Source: a virus. From it: a stretch of DNA of 29,907 nt. The translations under genes and the position numbers were made by a program. Below the pieces are notes generated by a model, which was not told the DNA's origin, searched no databases, and saw only the letters and a program-made list of their open reading frames with translations. Location of the stretch: positions 1-29,907 of IMG/VR virus record IMGVR_UViG_3300020371_000043; one strand, given 5' to 3'. Of this stretch, positions 17,324 to 21,681 are shown one piece after another; position 1 is the first letter of the stretch, and the number at the start of each line of letters is the position of its first letter.

Positions 17324-17948
17324 ATGTAAATAGAAAATCGTTTACAAGACTCTCTGATTTTTCTTTACCGAATTTGCCAGAAAGATACCCACCTACAGGA
17401 TCTAGTTTTCTCATGTATTTGTCAAAATCATGATAGGTTTTGTACATGAGATTCTGGCTGGGTTTCTTTGATTCTAACATATCTCTGTAAACAGTCAAGT
17501 ACTTTTTAAACATATCTAAATGTTCGTCTACTTCTGCAAACGTACAATACCTGACATAGATGTTATCAGAAAAATGATTACCCATTTCAAAGAATCGATA
17601 ATCTTGTTCTGCCTTGGGTAGACCCTGTACAGAGAAAGGACAGTTTTCTATAGGGTGTTGAAAGTCAAAAACAATAATGACTTTCTTTTCAAAAAATCCC
17701 ATCAAATCCATACCGAAGCATGGTAGATTCTCACCAGTTCTAGGATAGATTATAGTGTTGTAGATACAGGATTTTTCATTCCAGATCTCAACTTCCCTAG
17801 ACTTATTAATGTACCAATCTTTATCAGTTCCATACAACTTAGCGGTGAGAGAGGTTCCTTTCCCCTCCCACTCTGCCCAAGTTGAATGGTGGTACAGTTC
17901 TGGAAAGACCTCATACAGAAGGGACTTGTAGTTCTTCCATAGGTTCAT
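17316..17948 (-). CDS. pebS: PebS-type ferredoxin-dependent bilin reductase (phycoerythrobilin synthase)
   Basis: A 210-residue HY2-family bilin reductase. The strongest stretches are NLPCFGMDLMGFFEKKVIIV, VFDFQHPIENCPFSVQGLP, YRFFEMGNHFSDNIYVRYC and the end DPVGGYLSGKFGKEKSE with VNDFLFTYG. These agree closely with my memory of PebS from cyanophage P-SSM2, which converts biliverdin IXalpha to phycoerythrobilin by four-electron reduction. The two catalytic aspartates fit D81 (FGMD) and D183 (LDPVGGY). I use the ATG at 17948, 38 bases inside cobS. A TTG at 17969 is in frame. The protein is about 20 residues shorter than P-SSM2 PebS. No heme oxygenase to supply biliverdin is in the window. PcyX or PebA remain alternatives. 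Confidence 0.9.
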   Translation of the reverse strand: MNLWKNYKSLLYEVFPELYHHSTWAEWEGKGTSLTAKLYGTDKDWYINKSREVEIWNEKSCIYNTIIYPRTGENLPCFGMDLMGFFEKKVIIVFDFQHPIENCPFSVQGLPKAEQDYRFFEMGNHFSDNIYVRYCTFAEVDEHLDMFKKYLTVYRDMLESKKPSQNLMYKTYHDFDKYMRKLDPVGGYLSGKFGKEKSESLVNDFLFTYG

Positions 17949-19026
17949 CAGTTTTAGTTTCACCTCCAAAGTTTACATCAGCATCAACCTTGTCATAGAG
18001 ATCAAGGAACGCTTGTTTTGTTTCATCATCAAAGCGGTTTACACATACTTCGATTGCCTTCTCTTTGTTCTTCCAGATAGCGTATGCCTTGACGATATGT
18101 ACAAGACGACGTGTGGAAATAACTTCCTCAACACCACCATCAAAGAAGGTCTTACGGATGATGTCACCCCAATCTACAAGACGCTTGCAGAACTCTTTGT
18201 CGTCACACAAGTTGGTCAAGATTTTCTCCTCAGTCTTTGGACTAGGATAGGACTGTTCAAAGGTTACTGGGAATCGCTCAAGGAAGGCTTCGTTGAGCAC
18301 GTTAGTTCCAATGAATCGTCCGTCGTCTGAACCTTTACCTTTAGTGTTTGCGGTTGCGATGACGTTGAAACCGTCAGATGGTTTGACGTATCGGCCAATT
18401 TTTTTAAGGAATACACCATTACCTTCAAGGATGCTTTGGAGACAGAGAATTTTGTTACTGGCGAGGTCGATCTCGTCAAGGAGCAAGATAGCTCCCCGCT
18501 CAAGTGCTTCAATAACGGGTCCGTTATGCCAGACTGTGGAACCATTAACAAGGCGGAAACCGCCAATAAGATCATCTTCATCAGTTTCAATGGTAATGTT
18601 TACACGAACGACTTCACGTTTCAGTTGAGCACACGCTTGTTCTACACCAAAGGTCTTACCATTACCAGAAAGACCAGTAATAAAGCATGGGTAGAAAAGT
18701 TTGGACTGAATGATTTTCTTTACATCAGAGAAGTTTCCAAACTTGACAAAGTTAGAATCAATCTCTGGAATAAGATTCTGTTCTACAGGAGGTACAACAG
18801 CAGGAGCAGCATAGGAACTTTCAAGTTTTGCTTTCTTCTCCTTGGCAGTGAGGTTCCACTTGCCTTTTGTTGTTTTGAACTGTTGCAGATATTTTGTAAC
18901 AGTCTGATATGTCACATCATGCTGAGCACAGTATGCTTTGATGTGTGCGGATGTGATCTTGTTACCGTAAAGATCACGAAGGTTGTTGATGAGTGATTCG
19001 GGATTCACTTTAGCTTCAAAAGGCAT
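17911..19026 (-). CDS. cobS: CobS-like AAA+ ATPase (MoxR/cobaltochelatase type)
   Basis: A 371-residue AAA+ protein of the MoxR/CobS group, a typical T4-like cyanophage gene. An N-terminal helical region of about 70 residues resembles a DNA-binding or partner domain (HDVTYQTVTKYLQQF). The motor has Walker A GLSGNGKT (118-125), ETDEDDLIGGFRL, Walker B ILLLDEIDLAS (180-190) and sensor VIATANTKG (222-230). In cobalamin synthesis CobS works with CobT and CobN to insert cobalt. Here the next gene upstream encodes a VWA protein of the type that partners such ATPases. The pair may therefore remodel another target. It is driven by its own promoter with a leader matching that of the partner gene. Confidence 0.9.
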   Translation of the reverse strand: MPFEAKVNPESLINNLRDLYGNKITSAHIKAYCAQHDVTYQTVTKYLQQFKTTKGKWNLTAKEKKAKLESSYAAPAVVPPVEQNLIPEIDSNFVKFGNFSDVKKIIQSKLFYPCFITGLSGNGKTFGVEQACAQLKREVVRVNITIETDEDDLIGGFRLVNGSTVWHNGPVIEALERGAILLLDEIDLASNKILCLQSILEGNGVFLKKIGRYVKPSDGFNVIATANTKGKGSDDGRFIGTNVLNEAFLERFPVTFEQSYPSPKTEEKILTNLCDDKEFCKRLVDWGDIIRKTFFDGGVEEVISTRRLVHIVKAYAIWKNKEKAIEVCVNRFDDETKQAFLDLYDKVDADVNFGGETKTDEPMEELQVPSV

Positions 19027-19032
19027 TGTTTG

Positions 19033-19104
19033 TTCTTGTCTATGTATACATTATAATGGAAGGAGAGGTGGAATCAACCACCCCTGTGCCAGTTTGTGAA
19101 CTGG
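19033..19104 (-). repeat. promoter-leader repeat, copy A (upstream of cobS)
   Basis: This block holds, in transcription order, a hairpin CCAGTT-CACA-AACTGG (19089-19104) placed just after the stop of the VWA gene, then GCACAGGGG, TTGATT, a 16-base spacer, TATAAT and a 5' untranslated segment. The 23 bases 19033-19055 differ from copy B (21367-21389) at only two positions, and the hairpin and GGCACA motif recur there too. Confidence 0.75.
19050..19077 (-). promoter_or_regulatory. sigma70-type promoter for cobS-pebS-DUF3310-gene 45 unit
   Basis: Minus-strand TTGATT (19072-19077), a 16-base spacer and a perfect TATAAT (19050-19055) lie 23 bases before the cobS ATG. With no terminator before regA, it could drive the whole clamp and clamp-loader cluster. 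Confidence 0.75.
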
Positions 19105-19105
19105 T

Positions 19106-21361
19106 CTATGCGATGTAACTCATGAACTGACCTAGAACTTTCTTGTTCATTTTCTTTGCAGAAAGTGACTTCTTGAAAGCAGACTTGATCTGTGCTTTGG
19201 TTGCATCTTCTTTCACTTCAAAACTAGAATCAGAGTTGAGTGCGGATGAGGACAATCCGAAGTAGGCGTGGTATCCACCACCCTCAGTAATCATAAGAGA
19301 CTTTGTTTTTCTCCACTGTGCCATGATGGTTTGATGTCTTTCATAATCATAGTCAACATAGCGACGGACAAAACTGTTGCAATCGCGATTATCAACAACT
19401 CGGATACCAAGGAAATTGACATCAGGAAAACGACCCCTGAGTTGTTTGAGTAGTGCAGTAGTCAAATCATAGTATGCGTCTGCACAATGATATGTTCTAC
19501 CATTTTTGTCACGAATGAATACGTTACCATGTGCTGAACGTGTTCCTAAGTATTGTTCATTACCCTGCCTGGATTTGAACTCTTTGTGAAACTTGAGAGG
19601 ATGTGCTTCACCATCAGTAAGAGTGATGCACTGAATCTTCTGAACACCTGTCTTCTTTTTGAACTCAGGAATGATCTGGTTCAAGGAGACAAGAGCTTCG
19701 TTCAGAGGAGTTCCAGACAGACTCAAACGACTTGGGCACTGGTAGTACACAGAACTGTCCCAACGACCACGTTGATCGAGACAACTCATGAGTCTCCAGA
19801 TGTTCATCATTTGATGTTCTAGATCTCCCTTCTTACAGTCACTTGTTAGAAACTCAACCATTGCGAATTGTGCTTCGATATAAAGTTGACCGTCTTTCTT
19901 AACATGGTGATCTTTAGGGTAAGCGTAACCTCTGTAGTTACCATACTCATCAAACTTTTTATCTCCACGATTCCACTCATTAGTAAAAGCGAATACTTGG
20001 AAAGGAATCTGAACTTTCTTACAGAACCAGATCAAGTTGAACAACTGTTTTACTGTGTCCTTAAGAACATTACTCATAGATCCAGACCAATCAAGGACAA
20101 AGATAAGTCCATGATTTTTGCCATCAGGTAGAGTGGTGACTTTTTTGAACAGATCTTCATTGTACTTGTATGAATGAAGTTTTGTGCAATCAAGAACACC
20201 TGTCTTTGATACTGTAGCACGAGCGTATGCGTCAGCAGACTTACGACACTCAAACTCTTTTACAAGATAGTTGACTTCTTTCTGTGCAGAACGACGGAAG
20301 AGTCTGTACTCATTGTCAACACTTGCATAAAGATTCATAGGAATACGATACTTGTTTTCTTCTTTGAGAAGTTCATTATCGTAGTGTTGTTGCTGTGCAA
20401 TCCACTCTTCATCAAGGTGTTTGTGAACGTCTACATTTTTAGCTTTGACAGTTTCAAGATTCAGTTCTGGAATGGTGCAGTAATCAGTATCATACACACC
20501 TGTGTTCCGATTCTTATCATTCAAGTTCTCCAAGTTATCAGAGAAAAGCTTGTCAGTGATAGTTTCAAAGTCACAATGTTCACCACCAATAGGTGAGTCA
20601 GAAAATTCAGGCGGGAAACCAGTGGTCTCATCTGAGTTATCACCAGACTCTTGCTCCTCAGATTCTTCGCCATCGGAACTTTCACTTTCAATCGAATCAA
20701 AAGTATCGGACTTATCTTCAGAAGGAATTGGATCAACCTTAGAACCACCACCCTGTTCCATCTCTGCACCATCAAATGGCAGATCAATCTTGATAGATTC
20801 TGTGTGCTGTGTCTTCATGAACTCATGAAGTTCATTAGCAAGTTCCAGAACCTCATCAAAGGTATCAGTATTGAGTGCAGAGTCACGGAAATATACTTCA
20901 TCTTCACTCATAGGAACGTCAACAAACTTTCCAATCTTGTGGTGAATGTTGATACGGTCTGGGAGATTCATATCTTCAACTTCATTCTCACCCAGTTCAA
21001 AGAAATCCTGATCGGAAAGTTCTTTGTATCCCATGTGAAATGTCTTGACGATACCAGCGTACTTACGCTTCATCAACTTCTCGATACGAACATCCTCAAG
21101 AATGTTGACGAATGACAAAGGAACTTCTGGATACCTTAGTTTCCAGTTCTCATTGGGTGTGTATAGTGCGTGTCCAACCTCATGACCCACCAGAAGGTCG
21201 TATACGGTCGCAGAGGCCTTGTCCCACATTGGAAGGGTCAATACTCTACGATCCACATCAAAGGAGGCCGTAGGGACTCTCTTGTTCTCGATGATAAGAT
21301 CTTCGGTAGCAAGCAGTTTAGCAAGTTGACCTTTGACTTCGTAATTGACCTTTTTAAGCAT
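19106..21361 (-). CDS. CobT-like metallopeptidase-VWA protein, partner of CobS
   Basis: A 751-residue protein with three parts. Residues 1-200 contain a zinc-peptidase-like motif LLVGHEVGHALYTP (H60, E61, H64) and then VNILEDVRIEKLM (E89, D90), which could give the third ligand. Residues 200-270 are an acidic serine-rich linker (for example SESSDGEESEEQESGD). From about residue 415 there is a von Willebrand factor A domain with an intact MIDAS start FVLDWSGSMS (D424, S426, S428), a TDGEAHP segment and a basic C-terminus. This resembles CobT and other VWA proteins paired with MoxR-type ATPases, and the pair partner cobS lies directly downstream. Cyanophage annotations often call it a peptidase. 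Whether it cleaves or only scaffolds is unknown. Confidence 0.85.
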   Translation of the reverse strand: MLKKVNYEVKGQLAKLLATEDLIIENKRVPTASFDVDRRVLTLPMWDKASATVYDLLVGHEVGHALYTPNENWKLRYPEVPLSFVNILEDVRIEKLMKRKYAGIVKTFHMGYKELSDQDFFELGENEVEDMNLPDRINIHHKIGKFVDVPMSEDEVYFRDSALNTDTFDEVLELANELHEFMKTQHTESIKIDLPFDGAEMEQGGGSKVDPIPSEDKSDTFDSIESESSDGEESEEQESGDNSDETTGFPPEFSDSPIGGEHCDFETITDKLFSDNLENLNDKNRNTGVYDTDYCTIPELNLETVKAKNVDVHKHLDEEWIAQQQHYDNELLKEENKYRIPMNLYASVDNEYRLFRRSAQKEVNYLVKEFECRKSADAYARATVSKTGVLDCTKLHSYKYNEDLFKKVTTLPDGKNHGLIFVLDWSGSMSNVLKDTVKQLFNLIWFCKKVQIPFQVFAFTNEWNRGDKKFDEYGNYRGYAYPKDHHVKKDGQLYIEAQFAMVEFLTSDCKKGDLEHQMMNIWRLMSCLDQRGRWDSSVYYQCPSRLSLSGTPLNEALVSLNQIIPEFKKKTGVQKIQCITLTDGEAHPLKFHKEFKSRQGNEQYLGTRSAHGNVFIRDKNGRTYHCADAYYDLTTALLKQLRGRFPDVNFLGIRVVDNRDCNSFVRRYVDYDYERHQTIMAQWRKTKSLMITEGGGYHAYFGLSSSALNSDSSFEVKEDATKAQIKSAFKKSLSAKKMNKKVLGQFMSYIA

Positions 21362-21366
21362 TTGTT

Positions 21367-21437
21367 TTCTTGTCTATGTACACATGATAACCGACCCTGT
21401 GCCAATTTCAATCAACCATGTGCCAGTTTGTCAACTG
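21367..21437 (-). repeat. promoter-leader repeat, copy B (upstream of the VWA gene)
   Basis: The same arrangement as copy A: hairpin CAGTT-GACA-AACTG (21424-21437) right after the preceding stop, GCACA, then a second GGCACAGGG. A -35/-10 pair follows, then a 5' segment that matches copy A in 21 of 23 positions (21367-21389), including the run from the -10 into GTACATAGACAAGAA. The similarity extends over non-coding sequence only. Confidence 0.72.
21384..21411 (-). promoter_or_regulatory. probable promoter of the VWA/metallopeptidase gene
   Basis: Minus-strand TTGAAA (21406-21411), a 16-base spacer and TATCAT (21384-21389) align exactly with the cobS promoter in spacing and downstream sequence. 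The -10 is one base off consensus, so it is probably weaker than that of cobS. Confidence 0.6.
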
Positions 21438-21438
21438 T

Positions 21439-21681
21439 CTACCCCGACCATCTCAATGCAGTATCCAAGGCTTTCTTTGCAGTGTTCTGTAATTTTATTA
21501 CTCTACTCTCATATGTGATTGTAAATCCTAGCAGATCTCCTTCGGGATCATTTGGCATACCCACAGGTTGCACAAAAAAGATTCCAGCATGTGCCACTGT
21601 CCTCCATTCCATGTCAATAAAACCTAAGTCCCTTAAGGCACACTCTAGTTTTAATGAATGGCATCCGTCTATTAGTATCAT
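21439..21681 (-). CDS. small hypothetical protein (80 aa)
   Basis: An 80-residue protein MILIDGCHSLKLECALRDLG followed by WRTVAHAGIFFVQPVGMPNDPEGDLLGFTITYES and a helical end KLQNTAKKALDTALRWSG. It looks like a small alpha/beta domain, and I do not recognise the family. No clear ribosome binding site precedes the ATG, which lies 22 bases after gene 46 stops. It is the last gene before the promoter-leader of the VWA gene. Confidence 0.65.
   Translation of the reverse strand: MILIDGCHSLKLECALRDLGFIDMEWRTVAHAGIFFVQPVGMPNDPEGDLLGFTITYESRVIKLQNTAKKALDTALRWSG

Follow-up and report, generated by a model that had tools for sequence, protein, structure and literature searches.

The window, by which we mean the whole 29.9-kb virus contig that was analysed, shares 99% identity with the T4-like cyanophages S-SSM7 and S-SSM6a over the 3.5 kb that was compared, and carries on its minus strand two neighbouring genes together with the leaders that precede them. 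The downstream gene, cobS (17911-19026), encodes a CbbQ/CobS-type AAA+ ATPase of 371 residues, recognized by its AAA_5 and CbbQ_C domains, its assignment to phrog_249 and its CobS, NorQ and CbbQ relatives in the PDB. The upstream gene (19106-21361; phrog_459), referred to here as the VWA gene, encodes a CobT-like protein of 751 residues that found no match in sequence searches of Pfam and the PDB, for which reason a structure model was built. This model, of moderate confidence (mean pLDDT 72.6), matches VWA folds that include NorD of the NorQD complex, and the protein has a MIDAS motif (DWSGS, residues 424-428). The pair is like CobS-CobT and NorQ-NorD in that a CbbQ/CobS-type AAA+ ATPase adjoins a MIDAS-bearing VWA protein, and differs from them in that the phage VWA protein has in addition an invariant HExxH motif (HEVGH, residues 60-64). 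Both motifs are invariant over 36 homologues of this protein, which is annotated as a "peptidase" in relatives, and their combination is something that the CobT reading would not explain. A published study (PMC8651126), which names this gene cobT, describes cobST as core genes of cyanophages and notes that the peptidase label usually given to cobT is an error.

Each of the two genes is preceded by a short leader that runs from the preceding stop codon to its ATG, 79 nt before cobS (19027-19105) and 77 nt before the VWA gene (21362-21438). On the minus strand, the cobS leader reads TAG ACCAGTTCACAAACTG GCACA ... TTGATT-16-TATAAT GTATACATAGACAAGAACAAACA and the VWA leader reads TAG ACAGTTGACAAACTG GCACA ... 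TTGAAA-16-TATCAT GTGTACATAGACAAGAAAACAA, so that the common build described in an earlier note on this DNA, with a CAGTT-N4-AACTG palindrome, GGCACA, a -35, a 16-nt spacer and a -10, is indeed present in both, as is the reported identity at 21 of 23 positions between the two 23-mers counted from the -10. In the cobS leader, a 24-bp operator (19085-19108; TAGACCAGTTCACAAACTGGCACA) with its core CAGTTCACAAACTG at 19090-19103 overlaps the stop codon of the VWA gene, and is followed by the -35-like TTGATT (19072-19077), the -10 TATAAT (19050-19055) and a 5' segment that ends at the ATG (19027-19049). The corresponding parts of the VWA leader are a 24-bp operator (21419-21442; core CAGTTGACAAACTG, 21424-21437) that overlaps the stop codon of an upstream ORF of 80 aa, the -35-like TTGAAA (21406-21411), the -10 TATCAT (21384-21389) and the 5' segment (21362-21383). 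These promoter-like sites are the two best of the scanned region, at 10/12 each. Within the window, GTNTACATAGACAAGAA has two exact occurrences and 4 sites at up to 3 mismatches (0.65 expected), and CAGTTNNCAAACTGGCACA likewise has two exact occurrences, where allowing up to 3 mismatches gives an expectation of 0.11; such counts are well above chance.

The earlier note had taken this element to be duplicated and specific to the pair. By their sequence, the two leaders belong instead to a class of promoters found in T4-like cyanophages. Its hallmark is a palindromic operator, TGTGNCASTTNNNNAASTGNCACA in full, with a 14-bp core that ends 34 +/-1 nt upstream of a -10 resembling TATAAT. When VWA and cobS leaders of other phages alone are used to train a position matrix, the window copies score 39.6 bits (cobS) and 35.0 bits (VWA), against 14.8 bits for the best of 100 window shuffles. 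Above a cut-off of 18 bits, S-SSM7 has 18 matches to this matrix and shuffled sequence has none. Two of these matches are those of the VWA gene and cobS, and the other 16 fall at 38.9-51.8 kb, in a stretch of small genes annotated as hypothetical. Counts in the other isolates are 20 in P-SSM2, 15 in S-SKS1, 11 in S-PM2 and 9 in S-CAM4, and at the low end 5 in Sf-FS3, 4 in Syn9 and 3 in S-SM2. The core CASTTNNNNAASTG (at most one mismatch) and an exact TATAAT occur 20-50 nt apart in 13 cases, 11 of them at a spacing of exactly 34 nt, and spacings of 33-35 nt are in excess over other spacings in all eight isolates. The spacing can shift by one base, and half of the cobS leaders have it at 35 nt. 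A scan of the viral_contigs collection with exact spacing returned at least 120 stretches, with 3-5 copies on some contigs among the matches listed. The class is concentrated in the small-gene region, including 43-53 kb of Syn9. In that part of Syn9 (DQ149023), a local variant, TCGTG-TATTCT-ATAAGAGTCAAAGG, in which the operator is recognizable, stands before several small genes.

Conservation of the element at the two genes was followed in a set of 80 metagenomic cobS loci plus the isolates, whose sequences are related, so that the counts are not independent. Of the distinct leaders in this set, 51 of 53 before the VWA gene and 77 of 80 before cobS have the core 33-35 nt ahead of a -10, compared with 13 of 627 other ORFs on the same strand and 5 of 2820 shuffled leaders. 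All eight isolates have the operator-promoter before both genes, if one includes the S-PM2 VWA copy at 17.9 bits, slightly below the cut, and two cobS sites found by eye, in Syn9 (core CACCTAAATAACTG, 33 nt) and S-PM2 (core CAATTGCCAAACTG, 36 nt). The two genes keep the element even where other genes lie between them, as in P-SSM2 and S-SM2. Loss of similarity in relatives was what the earlier note had named as evidence against a shared element; operator and -10 are retained, and what is confined to the near-identical relatives of the window is the 21/23 match. To judge from these leaders, shared control of the VWA gene and cobS is a clade-wide feature.

What the family holds constant is how far the -10 lies from the palindrome (34 nt after AACTG); the -35 is not fixed. 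A TTGACA at 16-18 nt, as would mark a sigma70 promoter, is not kept across the family: the -35 of VWA leaders is close to random save in a few, including the group of the window, and that of cobS leaders is slightly above random. The window copies, TTGATT (4/6) and TTGAAA (5/6), are passable by comparison with TTGACA, and might also act as plain sigma70 promoters. The -10, on the other hand, is host-like. That the two -10s are unequal, as the earlier note had pointed out, holds well beyond the window, with TATAAT in 65 of 77 cobS leaders vs 10 of 51 VWA leaders, which mostly have TATNAT (commonest, TATGAT and TATTAT). In paired loci the -10 is nearer to consensus before cobS in 34 and before the VWA gene in 1; after thinning for relatedness, which covers this comparison (75% VWA identity, n = 25), cobS has the better -10 in 12 loci and the VWA gene in none, with 13 ties (sign test, p = 0.0005). 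This asymmetry fits, and does not prove, a stronger cobS promoter and unequal expression of the pair. A terminator-like sequence occupies the gap between operator and -10 in 63 of 77 cobS leaders and 23 of 51 VWA leaders.

We consider it reasonably probable that the class consists of operator-dependent promoters, including those placed before the VWA gene and cobS, at which a bound dimer aids the host RNA polymerase. A putative dimeric regulator would bind the palindrome, whose dyad centre lies near -53, and help the polymerase to start at the -10, the operator thereby filling the role of a -35. The class would drive mostly small genes of one genome region, which are probably early genes, plus the VWA gene and cobS, each from its own promoter, and the terminator in the gap would end the transcript of the upstream gene and so insulate the VWA gene from cobS. 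Points against this proposal are the scarcity of strict copies in Syn9 and S-SM2, the one-base variation in spacing, the passable -35 of the window copies and the relatedness of the sequences counted.

The palindrome also invites readings that require no such regulator. The earlier note saw in it a hairpin after the stop codon, and in both window copies it begins directly after that codon and can pair perfectly, as might be expected of an RNA structure at the 3' end of the upstream mRNA that serves in termination or stability. The palindrome itself stands, as the core of a longer one whose upstream outer arm is degenerate in the window and overlaps the stop codon. Pairing, however, is not conserved: among the matches listed, a variable G/C position is non-complementary in 110 of 149 distinct full-length copies. 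At the same position, non-complementary arms outnumber complementary ones by 39 to 9 in VWA leaders, and cobS leaders comprise 34 complementary and 24 non-complementary copies, the rest having A. This loss of arm complementarity favours a DNA operator read by protein over an RNA hairpin, and the hairpin reading was dropped; with the distance to the downstream -10 conserved and real terminators located separately in the gap, we consider it extremely unlikely. No more than slightly better are the prospects of a leader duplicated between the two genes and tying their expression, which we regard as very unlikely. It is favoured by the 21/23 match, which the window has in common with its near-identical relatives, and is allowed some local scope by the distribution of GACAAGAA, which occurs before the VWA gene in three of the four nearest outside relatives (L144, L145, L146 and L164) and before cobS only in the window group. 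In those four relatives, cobS is preceded by a leader that is spaced at 35 nt and has a 5' segment unlike that of the window. A local conversion from the VWA to the cobS leader in the genus of the window is possible, and would have few bases to explain; against duplication, the cobS leader of L145, compared by eye, already shares 19 of its 23 positions with that of the window. As a general explanation, recent duplication was rejected on account of the many copies of the class in a genome and of a match within genomes that is no better than that between them: over the 23 nt from the -10, VWA and cobS leaders of the same locus agree at a median of 12 of 23 positions (n = 43), the mean between loci is 11.9, and 21/23 is reached only by the species group of the window.

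If the palindrome is an operator, it might equally be asked whether it represses, and who supplies the protein that reads it. A palindromic operator close to a promoter is commonly the site of a repressor, and the window copies own a usable -35, so that an accumulating phage factor might turn these promoters off. The operator nevertheless lies upstream of the -35, at near-fixed spacing, and the -35 is for the most part not conserved; since a fixed upstream operator combined with an unkept -35 suits an activator better, repression appears unlikely to us. A regulator of the host, exploited by the phage, would have the merit that the genes transcribed first need a factor that is already in the cell or is borne by the virion, and exploitation of host PhoB by phages has a precedent (Zeng and Chisholm 2012, as cited in PMC5082946). 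By inspection, however, the operator is neither a Pho box (CTTAN7CTTA) nor an NtcA site (GTAN8TAC) (PMC3037559), and a search of 84,980 species found the exact module in no cyanobacterial genome; the six stretches that matched look like phage contigs. The absence of the module from cyanobacterial genomes makes a host regulon improbable, and we give this alternative little credence.

The activator reading has a counterpart in the middle promoters of T4, which combine a MotA box with a -10, the upstream activator site replacing the -35 before TATAAT. The present operator would play the same part, and differs from the T4 site in its sequence, in being palindromic and in where it lies, near -53 as against near -30. 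The Syn9 transcriptome study of Doron et al. 2016 reportedly described a novel regulatory element of early genes, neither T4-like nor host-like, that T4-like cyanophages conserve and carry in abundance. The class found here is likewise clade-wide and occupies the small-gene region, including 43-53 kb of Syn9, and it may, likely enough, be that same element, a likeness drawn from the reported description and not from a motif sequence; the consulted papers that cite Doron et al. 2016 give no motif. The near-universal placement at the cobT-like gene and cobS, the terminator within the promoter and the -10 asymmetry seem to go beyond that description. Late promoters are a different matter: the late octamer TATAAATA is absent from the -10 regions of the window, which read TATAATGT and TATCATGT, the T4-like late promoter motif being NATAAATA (PMC2984593).

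A 2010 review (PMC2984593) reports that motA and asiA are absent from cyanomyoviruses, and called unresolved the control of pre-late transcription in T4-like cyanophages, which are without MotA, AsiA and the T4 modifiers of RNA polymerase. We entertain, more tentatively than the class reading itself and at less than even chances, the idea of an undescribed dimeric activator, encoded by the phage or carried in the virion, that would use the 24-bp palindrome near -53 in place of a -35 to take over the host RNA polymerase independently of MotA and AsiA, with the cobT-like gene and cobS as its most widely conserved targets and a difference in promoter strength built into the pair. The operator, recorded at near-fixed spacing in the genomes of eight isolates and at tens of loci from metagenomes, offers a concrete bait for such a factor. 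Its conservation before both genes also indicates that the cobT-like gene and cobS, often discussed as metabolic passengers, are throughout the clade promoted separately, by a promoter class of the phage's own.

Several smaller observations concern the module itself. Among the 149 full-length modules in the matches listed, the half-sites favour unlike partners (G/G or C/C on one strand) by 110 to 39 (Fisher p = 1e-6, uncorrected for relatedness), and the operator would so be systematically an imperfect palindrome. Some operators have a -10 on both sides at equal spacing (P-SSM2 44645, 66596 and 68758; S-PM2 20121), which speaks for the operator-dependent reading. The module and the VWA family occur together in 5 of 22 module-bearing records, most of which are fragments. 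Bacterial contigs assigned to Nonlabens xiamenensis RMVE01000006 (L129, L134) and to a TMED113 MAG (L130, L132, L133) also carry the module, in copies identical to that of the IMG/VR contig L088, and are probably phage contigs binned with bacteria. Finally, a near-identical module, CAGCACTCCTTG...GTGCTTTTTTATTG, precedes three apparently different genes in S-SKS1 (22015, minus strand), Sf-FS3 (202714) and S-CAM4 (183136), as if a promoter cassette moved between genes.
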